From Gemmatimonadota bacterium (GTDB lineage: Bacteria > Gemmatimonadota > Gemmatimonadetes > Gemmatimonadales > Gemmatimonadaceae): a stretch of DNA of 47,667 nt. The DNA lies in NCBI GenBank assembly GCA_002737115.1, contig NSHR01000014.1, positions 1-47,667 of the forward strand, in the 5' to 3' direction. The translations under genes were made by a program, and so were the position numbers. Each line of letters starts with the position of its first letter. Position 1 is the stretch's first letter. This document shows, piece after piece, positions 313-8,843 of the stretch. Under the pieces are notes generated by a model that was not told where the DNA came from, made no database searches, and worked only from the letters and a program-made list of their open reading frames with translations.

Positions 313-412
313 CTACTCGAACGGTGACCGTTGAGCATACTGCGCGATCGCCGACCTCGCCAGCGCCTCGTGGCGGGTGGCAGCGTGCCCGCTGACGCGT
401 TCGTGCGCCTCG
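313..412. repeat. Dispersed intergenic repeat, copy A
   Basis: This segment shares long blocks with copies B, C and E. With E it shares gcgatcgccgacctcgcc, and with B it shares ggtggcagcgtgcccgctga. It fills the space between the stop codon of the M29-like gene (425) and the kinase start. The left end differs from the other copies: in place of the ggataggaatttc end it has the 13-nt palindrome AACGGTGACCGTT at 320-332. It is therefore a truncated or rearranged copy. Confidence 0.75.
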
Positions 413-424
413 TCACTCGCCTCA

Positions 425-1585
425 TCAACGTGAGCCTCCGACCAGGTGTCCGTCCCGTACCCAGGTGCGATCGCCGATGGTCACTGTCGCGTCGATGAAG
501 AAATTCCAGCGCACGTACCCGCCGCCGACCGTGCCGCCAAGCTCCGTATTGTCGCCGAGGGAAAGCCGAACGACGCCGGCGCCATATCCGTAGTAGGGAA
601 TCCAGCGGTCGCCACTGGTCGGGATGGCCAGCAGCGGATTGAACCCGAGGGCAAGCTCACGGAAGGCGCGACCGCCGGGGCCTGCCTGCGACAGCTCCGC
701 CTCGACCGCCTGTCGGCCGGTGCGCGTGGACCATTCGGTGACGCGTCCGTTGACGAAGGTCATGACCAGTCCTTCGACCCGCTCGCGGCCCCACACGGAC
801 GACGGGAAGGCGATGCGACCGTTCACGCTCTCCTCGATTGGCGCGGTGCGAATCGCCCCGGCCGGCAGTTCGATCTCGCGATCGATCAGGTTGCGCGCCG
901 AGCGCATGGGTGCCGCGCTCGCGTCGCCGTCCTGCTTCGTGACCGGCCGGTCGCCGATTCGGAATGTGATGTCCGTGCCCGCCGGTGTGGTGACACGGAC
1001 CGGTGCCGCGCGCACCGCCCGTTCGAACGCGGCCTGTGCCGCTGCCAGTCCGCGATAGTCGGTGTCGCGCAGGACCACGCTGTACATCGCCGCGATCGCT
1101 GGTGTGATATCGATCGGCGACCCGTCTATTGAATAGGCCCCTTCCCAATGGAAGTGGATCGTCCGCCCCTTCCCGGTGCGCAGCACGTCCTGCATCGCCG
1201 CGTAGGCTGCGTCGGTGACCGTCGCCCCCGGCATCATGATGGCGACGTCGACCGTGGCCAGCCACTTCGCCAACTCCTCGCGCGTTGCGGGCGCGCCCCG
1301 CGTAAACACCGTCGCCCAAGCCGGATCAGCCACGCCGCGCGATGCCAGCGCGCCGAGGTCCGTCGCCCCCGCGGAGCGGATCCGCTCGCGGAGCTCCGGG
1401 ATCAGCGCATCGGAGCGACCGGGCACTGCCAAGAGCAACACGCGCTCACCGGCGCGGAGGTTCAGGCGGGCGACCATCGTCGTCGCGATCAGCTGCGGGT
1501 CGACCCCATCCTGTGCCATGGCTACCTGGCTGCTCAAGACGGACCATAAGACGGCGGAGGCGGCGAGGTGTCGGAGCACGCGCAT
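425..1585 (-). CDS. Secreted M29-like aminopeptidase-family protein, metal site apparently incomplete
   Basis: This 386-residue protein has a signal peptide (about residues 1-24, ending AMAQDG). It has the general course of thermophilic metallopeptidase family M29: an N-terminal segment with LLLAVPGRSDALIPELRER, the GTDITF strand near residue 203, PIEESVNG near 249, VEGLVMTFVNGRVTE near 270 and ELALGFNP near 310. Two glutamates that normally bind metal (around E251 and E310) are kept. The two histidines expected further on appear replaced by R340 and F363, leaving only D365, so peptidase activity is doubtful. I chose the ATG at 1583-1585 because it opens the signal peptide; the open frame runs further upstream only through repeat B. 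The family call is from recall of M29 motifs, not from an alignment. Confidence 0.7.
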   Translation of the reverse strand: MRVLRHLAASAVLWSVLSSQVAMAQDGVDPQLIATTMVARLNLRAGERVLLLAVPGRSDALIPELRERIRSAGATDLGALASRGVADPAWATVFTRGAPATREELAKWLATVDVAIMMPGATVTDAAYAAMQDVLRTGKGRTIHFHWEGAYSIDGSPIDITPAIAAMYSVVLRDTDYRGLAAAQAAFERAVRAAPVRVTTPAGTDITFRIGDRPVTKQDGDASAAPMRSARNLIDREIELPAGAIRTAPIEESVNGRIAFPSSVWGRERVEGLVMTFVNGRVTEWSTRTGRQAVEAELSQAGPGGRAFRELALGFNPLLAIPTSGDRWIPYYGYGAGVVRLSLGDNTELGGTVGGGYVRWNFFIDATVTIGDRTWVRDGHLVGGSR

Positions 1586-1657
1586 GGAGGTGGGGCTGGA
1601 GGCGGCGAACGCTGGTTGCCAGCAACGTGCGCGTCCGGCGGACGACTGTCTACACCG

Positions 1658-1783
1658 GGATAGGAATTTCAATCGCAGCGGGTCGACTATCCGTCGAGTA
1701 TCCGACGCGATCGCCGACCGCGCGAGCACCGACTGGCAGGTGGCAGCGTGCCCGCTGACTCGTTTGTGCGCCTCGAGGGCCGT
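1658..1783. repeat. Dispersed intergenic repeat, copy B (full length)
   Basis: This 126-bp element begins ggataggaatttcaatcg and ends gcgcctcgagggccgt. It matches copy C over its whole length with about nine mismatches counted by eye. It lies 72 bp upstream of the M29-like start codon, with its ggatag end towards the gene. It occupies most of the gene-free stretch 1586-1981; in the remaining part, 1784-1981, I see no recognisable gene, promoter or structure. Confidence 0.85.
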
Positions 1784-1981
1784 GGGAACGGCGGCCATCG
1801 TGGGGGGAGCGATGCCGGCGGGGACCCATCCGTCGCGCGGGTGGGACGGCCGCCCATGCCGAAGGTCCCCGTGTGATGGCGGGGCGTCAGGGCCGTCCTC
1901 CGGTGACGGGTGGAGCGTCGGGCTGCTGAAGTGGTGGGACTGGTCCGACCAGAATCTCGCGAAGGTGAGAAGCCCCGCGAG

Positions 1982-6994: not shown

Positions 6995-7027
6995 CGTCGA
7001 ATAATCCTAACCGCTCGTATCGATCCT

Positions 7028-7055
7028 GGGCGCCGCCTGGTCATCGGCGGCGCCC
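7028..7055 (-). terminator. Strong hairpin after the CubicO gene
   Basis: GGGCGCCGCC and GGCGGCGCCC form a perfect 10-bp stem around an 8-nt loop, between the stop codon of the CubicO gene (7073) and the aldo/keto reductase start (6994). No T-run follows on the minus strand, so it may be a Rho-dependent or attenuating structure rather than a classic intrinsic terminator. Confidence 0.55.
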
Positions 7056-7072
7056 GTGTTGCTGAACGGTGC

Positions 7073-8737
7073 CTATCGCACCTTCGCAAACCGGATATCG
7101 CGGCTCCGCTCGTCGATGTTGACCACGAAGCCGTTCACCTTCCCGCGCGCGTCGCGCACGAAGGCGACCGAGCGCATGCTAGGAAGGGTCCCGGTGAAGT
7201 CCTCGCCCCAACGGCGGATGAGCACACCGACGCCACGGCGCCGGTGTCGCACGATGAGCCCTCCGCTGCGCGCCTCGACCAGATACGTCGCCTGCAACTC
7301 GCTGCTGAAGTACTCACCGATGTAGTCCTGTGTGGGCGCCGGCGCTGGTTCGCGGTCGGGCATGCGTGGCGAGACGCGCTCCCGATACAGCAGCCCCGTG
7401 ACGCGCCCCGTCCCGTCGCGCTGGAAGGTCATTGACGCGCCGTAGTTCGGGACCCAGAGCTCCCGCTCGGAGCGCGCGACCATTGGACCGACCCCCTCGC
7501 CGCTCGCCTGCACGGTGAGCCCGTTCCCGTCGCGTCGCACCTGGGCGTACCACCCCGGGCCAAGCTTGTACGTGCCGGCATAGGCATCGAGCGTCGCCGC
7601 CGGCAGCTGCACAACGGGAGGTTCCGTCGCCGCTGCGAGTGGCGCCAGCGCCGAGCCAAGCAACACGTCGGTGACCTGCTGCGCGGCGCGCGTAGGGTTC
7701 ACCTGCGGCGCGTTGGCCAGCACGACGACGCCAAAGCGATGCTGTGGAACGTGCAGCACGTAGGTCACGAAGCCGGCCCACGACCCGGAATGATTGACGG
7801 TCGACGCTCCACGGTACTCCCCATGCGATACGCCAAAGGCGTAGGGAATCGTCGACCCGTCGTTGAGCACCCCCCGCGTGCGCGTGAGCGCCATCGCCTG
7901 CGCACCGCCCACGCGCATCGAATCGAAGTTGATGACCCACCTGGCCATGTCCTCGACGGTGCTCATCATCGAGCTGGAGCCGAGCGCGGTAAGGTTGTTG
8001 GTCACCGCACGCCAGCGCCCGTCGGGGGCGCGCGTGTAGCCCAGCGCGCGGTCGGGGATCACGGCCGTGTGATCGTCGCGAAAGACGGTCCGCGTCATGC
8101 CCAACGGCTGAAAGAGATTGGCATCGGTCCACCCCCGGAACGGCTGTCCCGTCACCCGCTGCACCGTCTCGGCCAGCAGGTTGTAGCCGGTGTTGGAGTA
8201 GGTGTACTCGCTCCCGGGGACAAAGTTGAGTGAGCGCTGGTGATAGGCCATCGTGAGGATCTGTTCGAACGAGATCACGTCGTCGTACTGCCATCCGGCC
8301 AGCCCGAGCGTCCCGGGCCAGTCGCGCACCCCGCTGGTGTGATGCAGCAGCTGATCTATCGTGATGGGCGCGCCGATGTCGGCCATCTCGGGGACGTGGC
8401 GACGGATGTCGTCGTCGAGGCGCACCTTCCCCTCGCCGATCAGCATCGCGATCGCCATGCCGGCAAACTGCTTGGAGACCGAAGCGACGTCGAAGACCGT
8501 GGACGGGGTGATGGGGACGCGATGCTCGAGGTCGGCCATCCCGTACCCCTTGGCGAAGATCATGCGCCCGTCGCGTACGACGGCGACCGCGAGCCCGGGC
8601 GCGTCCGTCCTGTTGAATGCGGTGAAGAGCGAGTCGATGCGCGCCGCGATCGCGCCTGGCAGCGGCTGGGCCGGCAGGGGCGCCGCGACCGAGAGGAGTA
8701 TCGCGACGGCGACGAGTCGGGCGAGAAGGCGGGACAT
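7073..8737 (-). CDS. Secreted serine hydrolase, beta-lactamase/CubicO family (class C-like)
   Basis: This 554-residue exported protein has a signal peptide (about 1-24, ending PLPAQP). The penicillin-recognising-enzyme fold is complete: nucleophile motif SVSK at 86-89, YSN at 180-182, and HSG at 316-318 in place of KTG, as usual in the CubicO/esterase branch. The 200 residues after the catalytic domain are beta-rich and contain two related halves, TLDAYAGTYKLG and TQDYIGEYFSSEL, typical of lipocalin-like tails in these proteins. Likely an esterase or D-peptidase acting in the periplasm. The start at 8737 has GGAG about 12 nt upstream; the longer open frame to 8950 runs through repeat E and is not used. 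Confidence 0.9.
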   Translation of the reverse strand: MSRLLARLVAVAILLSVAAPLPAQPLPGAIAARIDSLFTAFNRTDAPGLAVAVVRDGRMIFAKGYGMADLEHRVPITPSTVFDVASVSKQFAGMAIAMLIGEGKVRLDDDIRRHVPEMADIGAPITIDQLLHHTSGVRDWPGTLGLAGWQYDDVISFEQILTMAYHQRSLNFVPGSEYTYSNTGYNLLAETVQRVTGQPFRGWTDANLFQPLGMTRTVFRDDHTAVIPDRALGYTRAPDGRWRAVTNNLTALGSSSMMSTVEDMARWVINFDSMRVGGAQAMALTRTRGVLNDGSTIPYAFGVSHGEYRGASTVNHSGSWAGFVTYVLHVPQHRFGVVVLANAPQVNPTRAAQQVTDVLLGSALAPLAAATEPPVVQLPAATLDAYAGTYKLGPGWYAQVRRDGNGLTVQASGEGVGPMVARSERELWVPNYGASMTFQRDGTGRVTGLLYRERVSPRMPDREPAPAPTQDYIGEYFSSELQATYLVEARSGGLIVRHRRRGVGVLIRRWGEDFTGTLPSMRSVAFVRDARGKVNGFVVNIDERSRDIRFAKVR

Positions 8738-8758
8738 GTGGGACGGCACTCCAAGGCG

Positions 8759-8843
8759 GGATAGCAACTTCAATCGGGGAGGGTTGACGACCCGACGAGC
8801 ATACGGCGCGATCGCCGACCTCGCCAGCGACGCGTGAGGCGCC
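8759..8843. repeat. Dispersed intergenic repeat, copy E (partial)
   Basis: It begins ggatagcaacttcaatcggg, continues gagcatacggcgcgatcgc and shares the gccgacctcgccagcg block with copy A. The border lies 21 bp upstream of the CubicO start codon, the same position and orientation relative to the gene as D has to its gene. It is 5 kb away from copy D, with three unrelated genes between. Confidence 0.7.

Follow-up and report, generated by a model that had tools for sequence, protein, structure and literature searches.

Elements of the IS91 and ISCR groups possess two ends, oriIS and terIS, which are the start and the end of rolling-circle transposition, and both frequent failure to stop at ter and one-ended transposition are described in the available excerpts of PMC13393415 and PMC7923331. 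Class 1 integrons have a known link to ISCR1, whose ori end contains outward promoters (excerpts of PMC13393415), and Gemmatimonadota are among the integron-bearing phyla according to the accessible part of PMC8618304. This report concerns a stretch of 47,667 nucleotides from a bacterium of the family Gemmatimonadaceae (contig NSHR01000014.1 of assembly GCA_002737115.1), called the window here, in the first 9 kb of which five repeats alternate with single genes. The repeats are probably worn remnants of the ori (3') end of a rolling-circle transposon, a member of the IS91 family in Gemmatimonadaceae that has an integron attC recombination site at its ter side, and positions 313-9000 of the window are probably a worn integron cassette array. 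To our knowledge, the origin of new gene cassettes and of integrase-less attC clusters is still an open question. The mechanism of cassette origin that was met in the literature is the proposal that group IIC-attC introns help to form cassettes (Leon and Roy 2009, via excerpts of PMC7923331). No description of an IS91-family element ending in attC was found in the literature searched, which was available partly as excerpts and mostly excluded subscription journals.

Within the window, three copies of the repeat were delimited at 295-420, 1658-1783 and 2567-2692, with shorter matches at 3746-3773 and 8757-8784, confirming the five repeats and their alternation with single genes that had been reported in an initial annotation. 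Copies B and C are 93% identical, with exactly 9 mismatches in 126 positions where about nine had been counted. The initial annotation treated the repeats as a free-standing element of 126 bp; the repeats themselves stand, but 126 bp is merely the stretch common to B and C and no natural length (B itself is longer), and the copies are truncated ends of a transposon of about 1.8 kb. A further piece, overlooked initially, is the opposite end of this transposon (5192-5265, 85%). With copy B and the whole transposon as queries, no copy was found in the remaining 38 kb of the window, in agreement with the earlier reading. The pieces of the transposon present in the window are the following.

317 to 412, forward strand: copy A, a fragment of the ori side that lacks GGATAG (77% to transposon positions 14-109).
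1656 to 1921, forward strand: copy B, ori end (83% to transposon positions 1-255, E = 2.4e-76).
2567 to 2692, forward strand: copy C, ori end (93% to B, 80% to the transposon).
3746 to 3790, forward strand: copy D, ori tip (match 3748-3790, 88% to positions 3-43).
5192 to 5247, forward strand: ter end of the transposon body (match 5192-5265, 85% to positions 1632-1704; 87% to the body end over 54 bp).
8757 to 8853, forward strand: copy E, ori end with its interior deleted (76% to B; a longer version is present in genome G020).

The GGATAG side lies 70 bp (B), 25 bp (D) and 19 bp (E) from a start codon. A free 126-bp element resembling a miniature inverted-repeat transposable element was ruled out, as was a plain integron cassette without a transposon, because homology in relatives continues for more than 600 bp toward a transposase gene. 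Structured RNA was also rejected, as the copies fold no better than shuffled sequences (z between -1.55 and +1.21 in 10 folds, each of the five copies being folded on either strand).

The parent transposon was found in relatives (searched genomes are labelled G, fetched loci L, and contigs within a genome C). Complete copies in congeners (Gemmatimonas) are 1.77-1.80 kb long, and in 17 aligned rows homology begins sharply at the GGATAG tip and continues inward for more than 600 bp, the outer flanks being unrelated. The transposases of the two copies scanned contain the domains Y2_Tnp (PF04986) and Zn_Tnp_IS91 (PF14319), which score 107 and 59 bits, respectively, in L038; the window holds ends without a transposase gene. 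The element, initially called unnamed, thus belongs to a known family, and the suggestion that it is mobile was borne out: copy B is matched in 20 of 61 genomes (its own included) and in 17 of the 30 within the genus. The transposase gene reads toward the GGATAG tip, which is therefore the counterpart of the ori (3') end in IS91/ISCR elements, while the opposite side corresponds to ter. The two ends are unlike each other (ori side aligned in 17 rows, ter side in 11), and relatives commonly hold copies that are cut at varied points yet keep the ori tip; the copies of the window are of the same sort. The window's own genome is available as a draft of 2.05 Mb in 89 contigs, 57% complete, in which a search with the repeat, as had been proposed, gave only a 38-bp and a 57-bp match outside the window contig, an absence that means little in such a draft, and in which a transposase search was silent, as were its 14 controls. 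Transposase relatives also occur in records labelled Proteobacteria (L119, 87%), Acidobacteriota (L123, 77%, with an attC call adjoining its truncated transposase) and Latescibacterota (L117, 55%), and these could be mis-binned contigs or products of transfer. In another genus, a 750-bp internally deleted transposon (L036/L190, G032:C21; approximately 7709-8457 of L036) keeps ori and part of the ter side, with no attC call there.

The junction between the transposon and attC is fixed in many copies and in several genera. The least biased figure comes from a search led by the transposase, with copies not chosen for attC: 28 of 54 relatives keep the transposase start and at least 250 bp before it, and in 19 of these 28, which represent 10 genomes, the model calls an attC on the strand opposite to the gene; its distance from the transposase start is 106-107 nt in 16 of the 19. 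Omitted from this count were 25 loci without a readable start, L104 (short upstream DNA and a cut attC), plus-strand matches and three distant minus-strand rows, and two of the 19 copies (L095, L109) hold sites that were used in building the model. The covariance model of attC was built from 12 of 16 motif matches, with the window's sites excluded and at least three of the 12 being transposon-borne (L017:16833, L032:4304, L041:5578), and its predicted pairing is the R''/R' and L''/L' arrangement typical of attC. Matches to it are present in 28 of the 30 genus genomes, and an integron integrase above the family cut-off is encoded in 18 of the 30.

Nine of 11 copies chosen for their retained ter side continue into a whole attC (GCCTAAC...GCGTT); the other two are cut by a contig end inside attC (L020) or have the left box only (L019). 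The fetched loci contain 118 attC matches at 114 distinct places, a set that omits weaker opposite-strand matches and eight rows (L061, L063, L064 twice, L068, L073, L080:5169 and L082:5369), and ter-side body directly precedes 24 of the 118 (one double, two weak). When the phylum was searched with the ter-attC stretch, two candidates being scored per genome, matches were found in at least 24 of 298 genomes and 9 of 119 genera, and 23 of the 24 genomes belong to the window's family. Outside the genus, 13 of 14 loci have a model-called attC at the ter side (the weakest at 20.7 and 28.9 bits), a proportion biased by the attC within the query; the locus without a call is the internally deleted L036/L190. 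Within G006, copies that are 96.7-99.4% alike (L018, L020, L021/L040) have different left flanks and keep the same attC. This regular union of an IS91-family transposon with attC across several genera of one family is the unexpected part of the results.

The association is closest for one type of attC, designated type T. With a query of the ter side plus attC, 52 rows were obtained from the 30 genus genomes among the best candidates scored (at most 27 per genome), and 32 of them reach the right half of a type-T attC. These are preceded by at least 30 bp of transposon body in 24 cases and by 13 bp in one, four more have another transposon piece directly before them, one begins at a contig end, and two (G006:C1:421587 and G017:C349:305) have no transposon piece that could be seen. 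Among the fetched loci, 16 of 18 type-T sites have the body upstream (two of the 16 weakly), a figure that is biased since most loci were fetched for transposon matches.

The alternative that fares best, although we consider it unlikely, is that the transposon carries no attC of its own and has a preference for insertion sites adjoining the R'' box of attC, and that the window contains an ordinary decayed array that was invaded repeatedly. Non-T attC types do follow the body in the window and in L079, L080, L082 and L083, and beyond the genus the homology stops at position 1723 in L184-L187 and L191. Elements that target attC also exist, namely group IIC-attC introns (excerpts of PMC8876359 and PMC7923331) and IS1111-attC elements. 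We weigh insertion beside attC so low because type-T attC is rarely found without a transposon piece (2 of 32), because the spacing of 106-107 nt is held in 16 of 19 copies, and because the attC type is constant among near-identical copies whose left flanks differ.

It is less probable still that the ori end is mainly a portable promoter for neighbouring secreted-enzyme genes, comparable to POUT of ISCR1, and that its spread was selected for this reason; a shared leader with a common promoter for imported genes had been suggested in the initial annotation. The ori end faces a gene start in 38 of the 51 cases with a called gene within 300 bp; for the 71 ori ends, with a flank of 300 bp and six repeated places removed, the count is 34 of 46 (p = 0.0045), and with the window left out it is 29 of 41 (p = 0.027), the proportion expected for intergenic positions being 0.526. 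An outward TTGAAA is present in 31 of the 71 ori ends, which is weak evidence, and oriIS of ISCR1 is a precedent for outward promoters (excerpts of PMC13393415). Nevertheless, the excess is modest, related loci are not independent, genes in relatives were called by a simple home-made method based on codon usage, and insertions ahead of genes are less harmful anyway.

Cassettes are exchanged at the cut point of the transposon-borne attC. L021 and L040, both of G006, agree in the transposon, its attC and no less than 3 kb of the left flank, and their DNA differs after GCG^TT; L017, a third and diverged copy, has the right-hand cassette of L021 (685 bp, 98.8%) from the cut point on, and the cassette behind the attC of L032 is held elsewhere in G009. 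Judging from these junctions, the transposon-borne attC is used by an integrase. Downstream of such sites there are 17 attC in 63.0 kb, versus 4 in 49.0 kb upstream (22 sites, one double, L077, and one weak, L080:3640, being omitted; p = 0.026), and several arrays therefore appear to begin there. The shared left flank, transposon and attC of L021 and L040 would also be seen if the transposon were a passenger inside one integron cassette, moved by the integron integrase alone, but this is very improbable, as near-identical copies otherwise have unrelated left flanks from GGATAG, which cassette movement would not give.

Joined flanks were checked for an open frame in nine copies, with a comparison with relatives for L032. 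The L032 copy was rejected as an insertion inside a gene: the single open frame of its joined flanks is a coincidence, and its right flank is where an ordinary cassette, present in G009 too, begins. The joined frames of L026, L030 and L041 were unconvincing on reading (L041 by eye). At L078:7273-8610 and L078:9091-10204, three attC each follow one another at regular intervals, of 606 bp in the first run and 509 bp in the second; the sites are near-identical within each run, which represents tandem cassette copies in an array of G006. In the best-known integrons, intI and the attC array are divergent. Four genomes depart from this arrangement, their listed attC following intI at its 3' end and sharing its strand (G029:C1:4063730-4075705, G028:C1:4310820-4316422, G021:C1:4107400-4148521 and G006:C1:455722-473214).

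Under the mechanism proposed here for a transposon whose ter side ends in attC, the HUH transposase would nick at the GGATAG end and copy the strand through to the attC hairpin, and the unit moved by transposition would extend from GGGATAGG through the R' box of attC. Insertion beside a gene would leave an attC there, which the host integron integrase could then use, with cassettes being added behind it, and a gene between two such attC could behave as a cassette. In the window, the copies of the transposon appear to sit between a gene start and an attC, and no integrase was seen nearby. We infer that transposition carries attC, that attC may act as ter, and that the genes of the window may have become cassettes in this way. 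The full proposal, in which the attC hairpin is the ter end, the transposon spreads a working attC through the chromosome, each insertion founds an array away from the integrase, and flanking insertions make a cassette of an ordinary gene, is offered tentatively, as a possibility that falls well short of an even chance. Antisense genes whose start adjoins a transposon tip would be the mark of such a birth of cassettes.

Several observations weigh against the idea that the transposon carries attC. The comparison of orthologous sites with and without the element, which the initial annotation had recommended, yielded no clean empty site of the transposon among relatives. The right flanks at GCG^TT resemble cassette starts, so an integrase rather than the transposase may have set the right border. 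Members of the IS91 family have a specific short target beside ori and make no target duplication; no common tetranucleotide was seen beside ori when 17 left flanks were aligned by eye. Nine of the 28 readable transposase copies have no model-called attC, three of them keeping the left half of the site (by eye) and six being without even half a site. AttC sites of other types lie beside some copies, those of the window included, with homology stopping in or near the shared left box, and 14 of the 52 rows end at positions 110-130, as would also result from repeated insertion beside different attC. Finally, no recognisable attC was found at copies A and C of the window.

The window was initially likened to a cassette array in which no convincing attC core is present. 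The likeness holds, since attC sites are present and the genes of an Asp/Glu racemase, an aldo/keto reductase and a serine beta-lactamase-family hydrolase (bla) recur in G017 or G020 with other neighbours; the statement about the core gives way to the model's detection of one attC at 5248-5338 and a weaker one at 8872-8966. The features that bear on the array are listed here.

1964 to 1990, forward strand: candidate attC half-site (right half) that overlaps the cupin-like gene at its stop codon (best L'/R' half-site in 47.7 kb, both strands).
2477 to 2563, forward strand: 5' part of a gene truncated by copy C (open frames of 401 and 403 amino acids in its homologues of G002 and G004).
3787 to 3897, forward strand: end of a known cassette and left part of that cassette's attC, shortened (R'' box ATCTAAC at 3827; 84% to G015:C35 and G024:C102 over 3788-3855).
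5248 to 5338, forward strand: attC recombination site directly after the ter body (67.8 bits, E = 1.1e-15).
5332 to 5929, forward strand: Asp/Glu racemase cassette (PF01177), joined at the attC cut point (97% in G017:C422 from 5329 on).
8872 to 8966, forward strand: diverged attC directly after copy E (20.3 bits, E = 0.003).

At the diverged site, window 8875-8967 is 85% identical to a stretch of G007:C295 that the model scores at 45.5 bits. The shortened attC after copy D was aligned to L018 and scores 7.5 bits, which is not significant, and the covariance model gave no call for the candidate half-site at 1964-1990. A contig edge of G017 carries the final 40 bp of the window's attC (92.5% identical); from there, a block of approximately 2.1 kb, bordered by G^TT on either side, separates that attC end from the racemase cassette; thus, the window lacks or has lost this block exactly at the attC cut point. 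The G017 sequence before the racemase is attC-like by eye and was not called by the model. The aldo/keto reductase gene and bla are adjacent in the window, whereas 6.7 kb separate them in G020. The gene starting at 2477 is interrupted by copy C within its first codons, and a continuation of this gene behind the insert was rejected, its remainder not being found in the window. The window is not classed as a complete integron, since no integron integrase match was found in its 57%-complete genome. Positions 313-9000 are best described as a decayed cassette array that was seeded or invaded by this transposon. The racemase gene (5429-5929) encodes 166 amino acids, compared with two homologues aligned over 223 positions, and has probably lost an internal part.

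The genes of the transposon-bearing units of the window are the following.

425 to 1585, reverse strand: M29-like metallopeptidase, start facing copy B (PF02073 at 26.5 bits, just below the 27-bit cut-off).
1982 to 2359, reverse strand: small secreted cupin-like gene, so named in the initial annotation (0 Pfam families).
2734 to 3720, reverse strand: metallo-beta-lactamase-fold hydrolase, start facing copy D (PF00753).
3891 to 5075, reverse strand: SGNH/GDSL hydrolase (PF14606, PF14607), with a homologue of 91% amino acid identity in G007 (L074).
7073 to 8737, reverse strand: serine beta-lactamase-family hydrolase (bla), start facing copy E (PF00144; 96-97% in G020 and G017).

All five run opposite to the direction of attC. 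For 44 of the 114 distinct attC, a gene other than that of the transposon was called on the R'' side at a distance of up to 300 bp; 40 of these genes share the strand of attC and 4 do not. Pfam families in the window also include an aldo/keto reductase, an Asp/Glu racemase and two serine beta-lactamase-family proteins. In distant congeners, homologues of the SGNH hydrolase (L074), the cupin-like protein (L149, L150), the aldo/keto reductase (L152, L153) and the racemase (L154, L155) lie in stretches without an attC call and, save for one 24-bp match in L149, without a transposon match. For the metallo-beta-lactamase-fold hydrolase, the stretches of L147 and L148 have an attC call, L147 also has a 73-bp piece of the transposon, and L151 has neither. 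This pattern is compatible with the genes of the window having been drawn into an array. Around copy E and its attC, two PF00144 genes stand back to back (window 7073-10695). The piece initially named a kinase (window 55-190) is approximately 71-86% identical to many places across the genus, and a kinase-like 5' end, recognised by eye, also adjoins ori of L030.

The union of transposon and attC suggests a route by which ordinary genes and new chromosomal spots could enter the integron system. If transposition carries attC, it would provide a mechanism both for founding arrays and for making cassettes; one would then expect transposon-borne attC at the head of arrays, excision of a gene that is flanked by two insertions, and empty sites in sister strains, which makes the question of cassette origin testable.

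Compared with IS91 and ISCR elements, the transposon has the same Y2 transposase with a zinc-binding domain, the same order of ter before and ori after the gene, and the same truncated copies that keep ori, and differs in that its ter side abuts an integron attC at a fixed spacing. With sedentary chromosomal integrons and clusters of attC sites lacking integron integrases (CALINs), the arrays share attC whose cassettes swap exactly at the R' cut point; they differ in that several of them appear to begin at a transposon-borne attC and in that the genes of the window's transposon-bearing units are antisense to attC (40 same-strand versus 4 opposite neighbours among the distinct attC with a called gene beside them). 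Group IIC-attC introns, in the excerpts available, are likewise mobile elements tied to attC and proposed helpers in cassette formation, but they insert into attC, whereas here a DNA transposon appears to bring it. IS1111-attC elements target attC. They resemble the present transposon as insertion sequences associated with attC and differ from it in having another type of transposase, DEDD.

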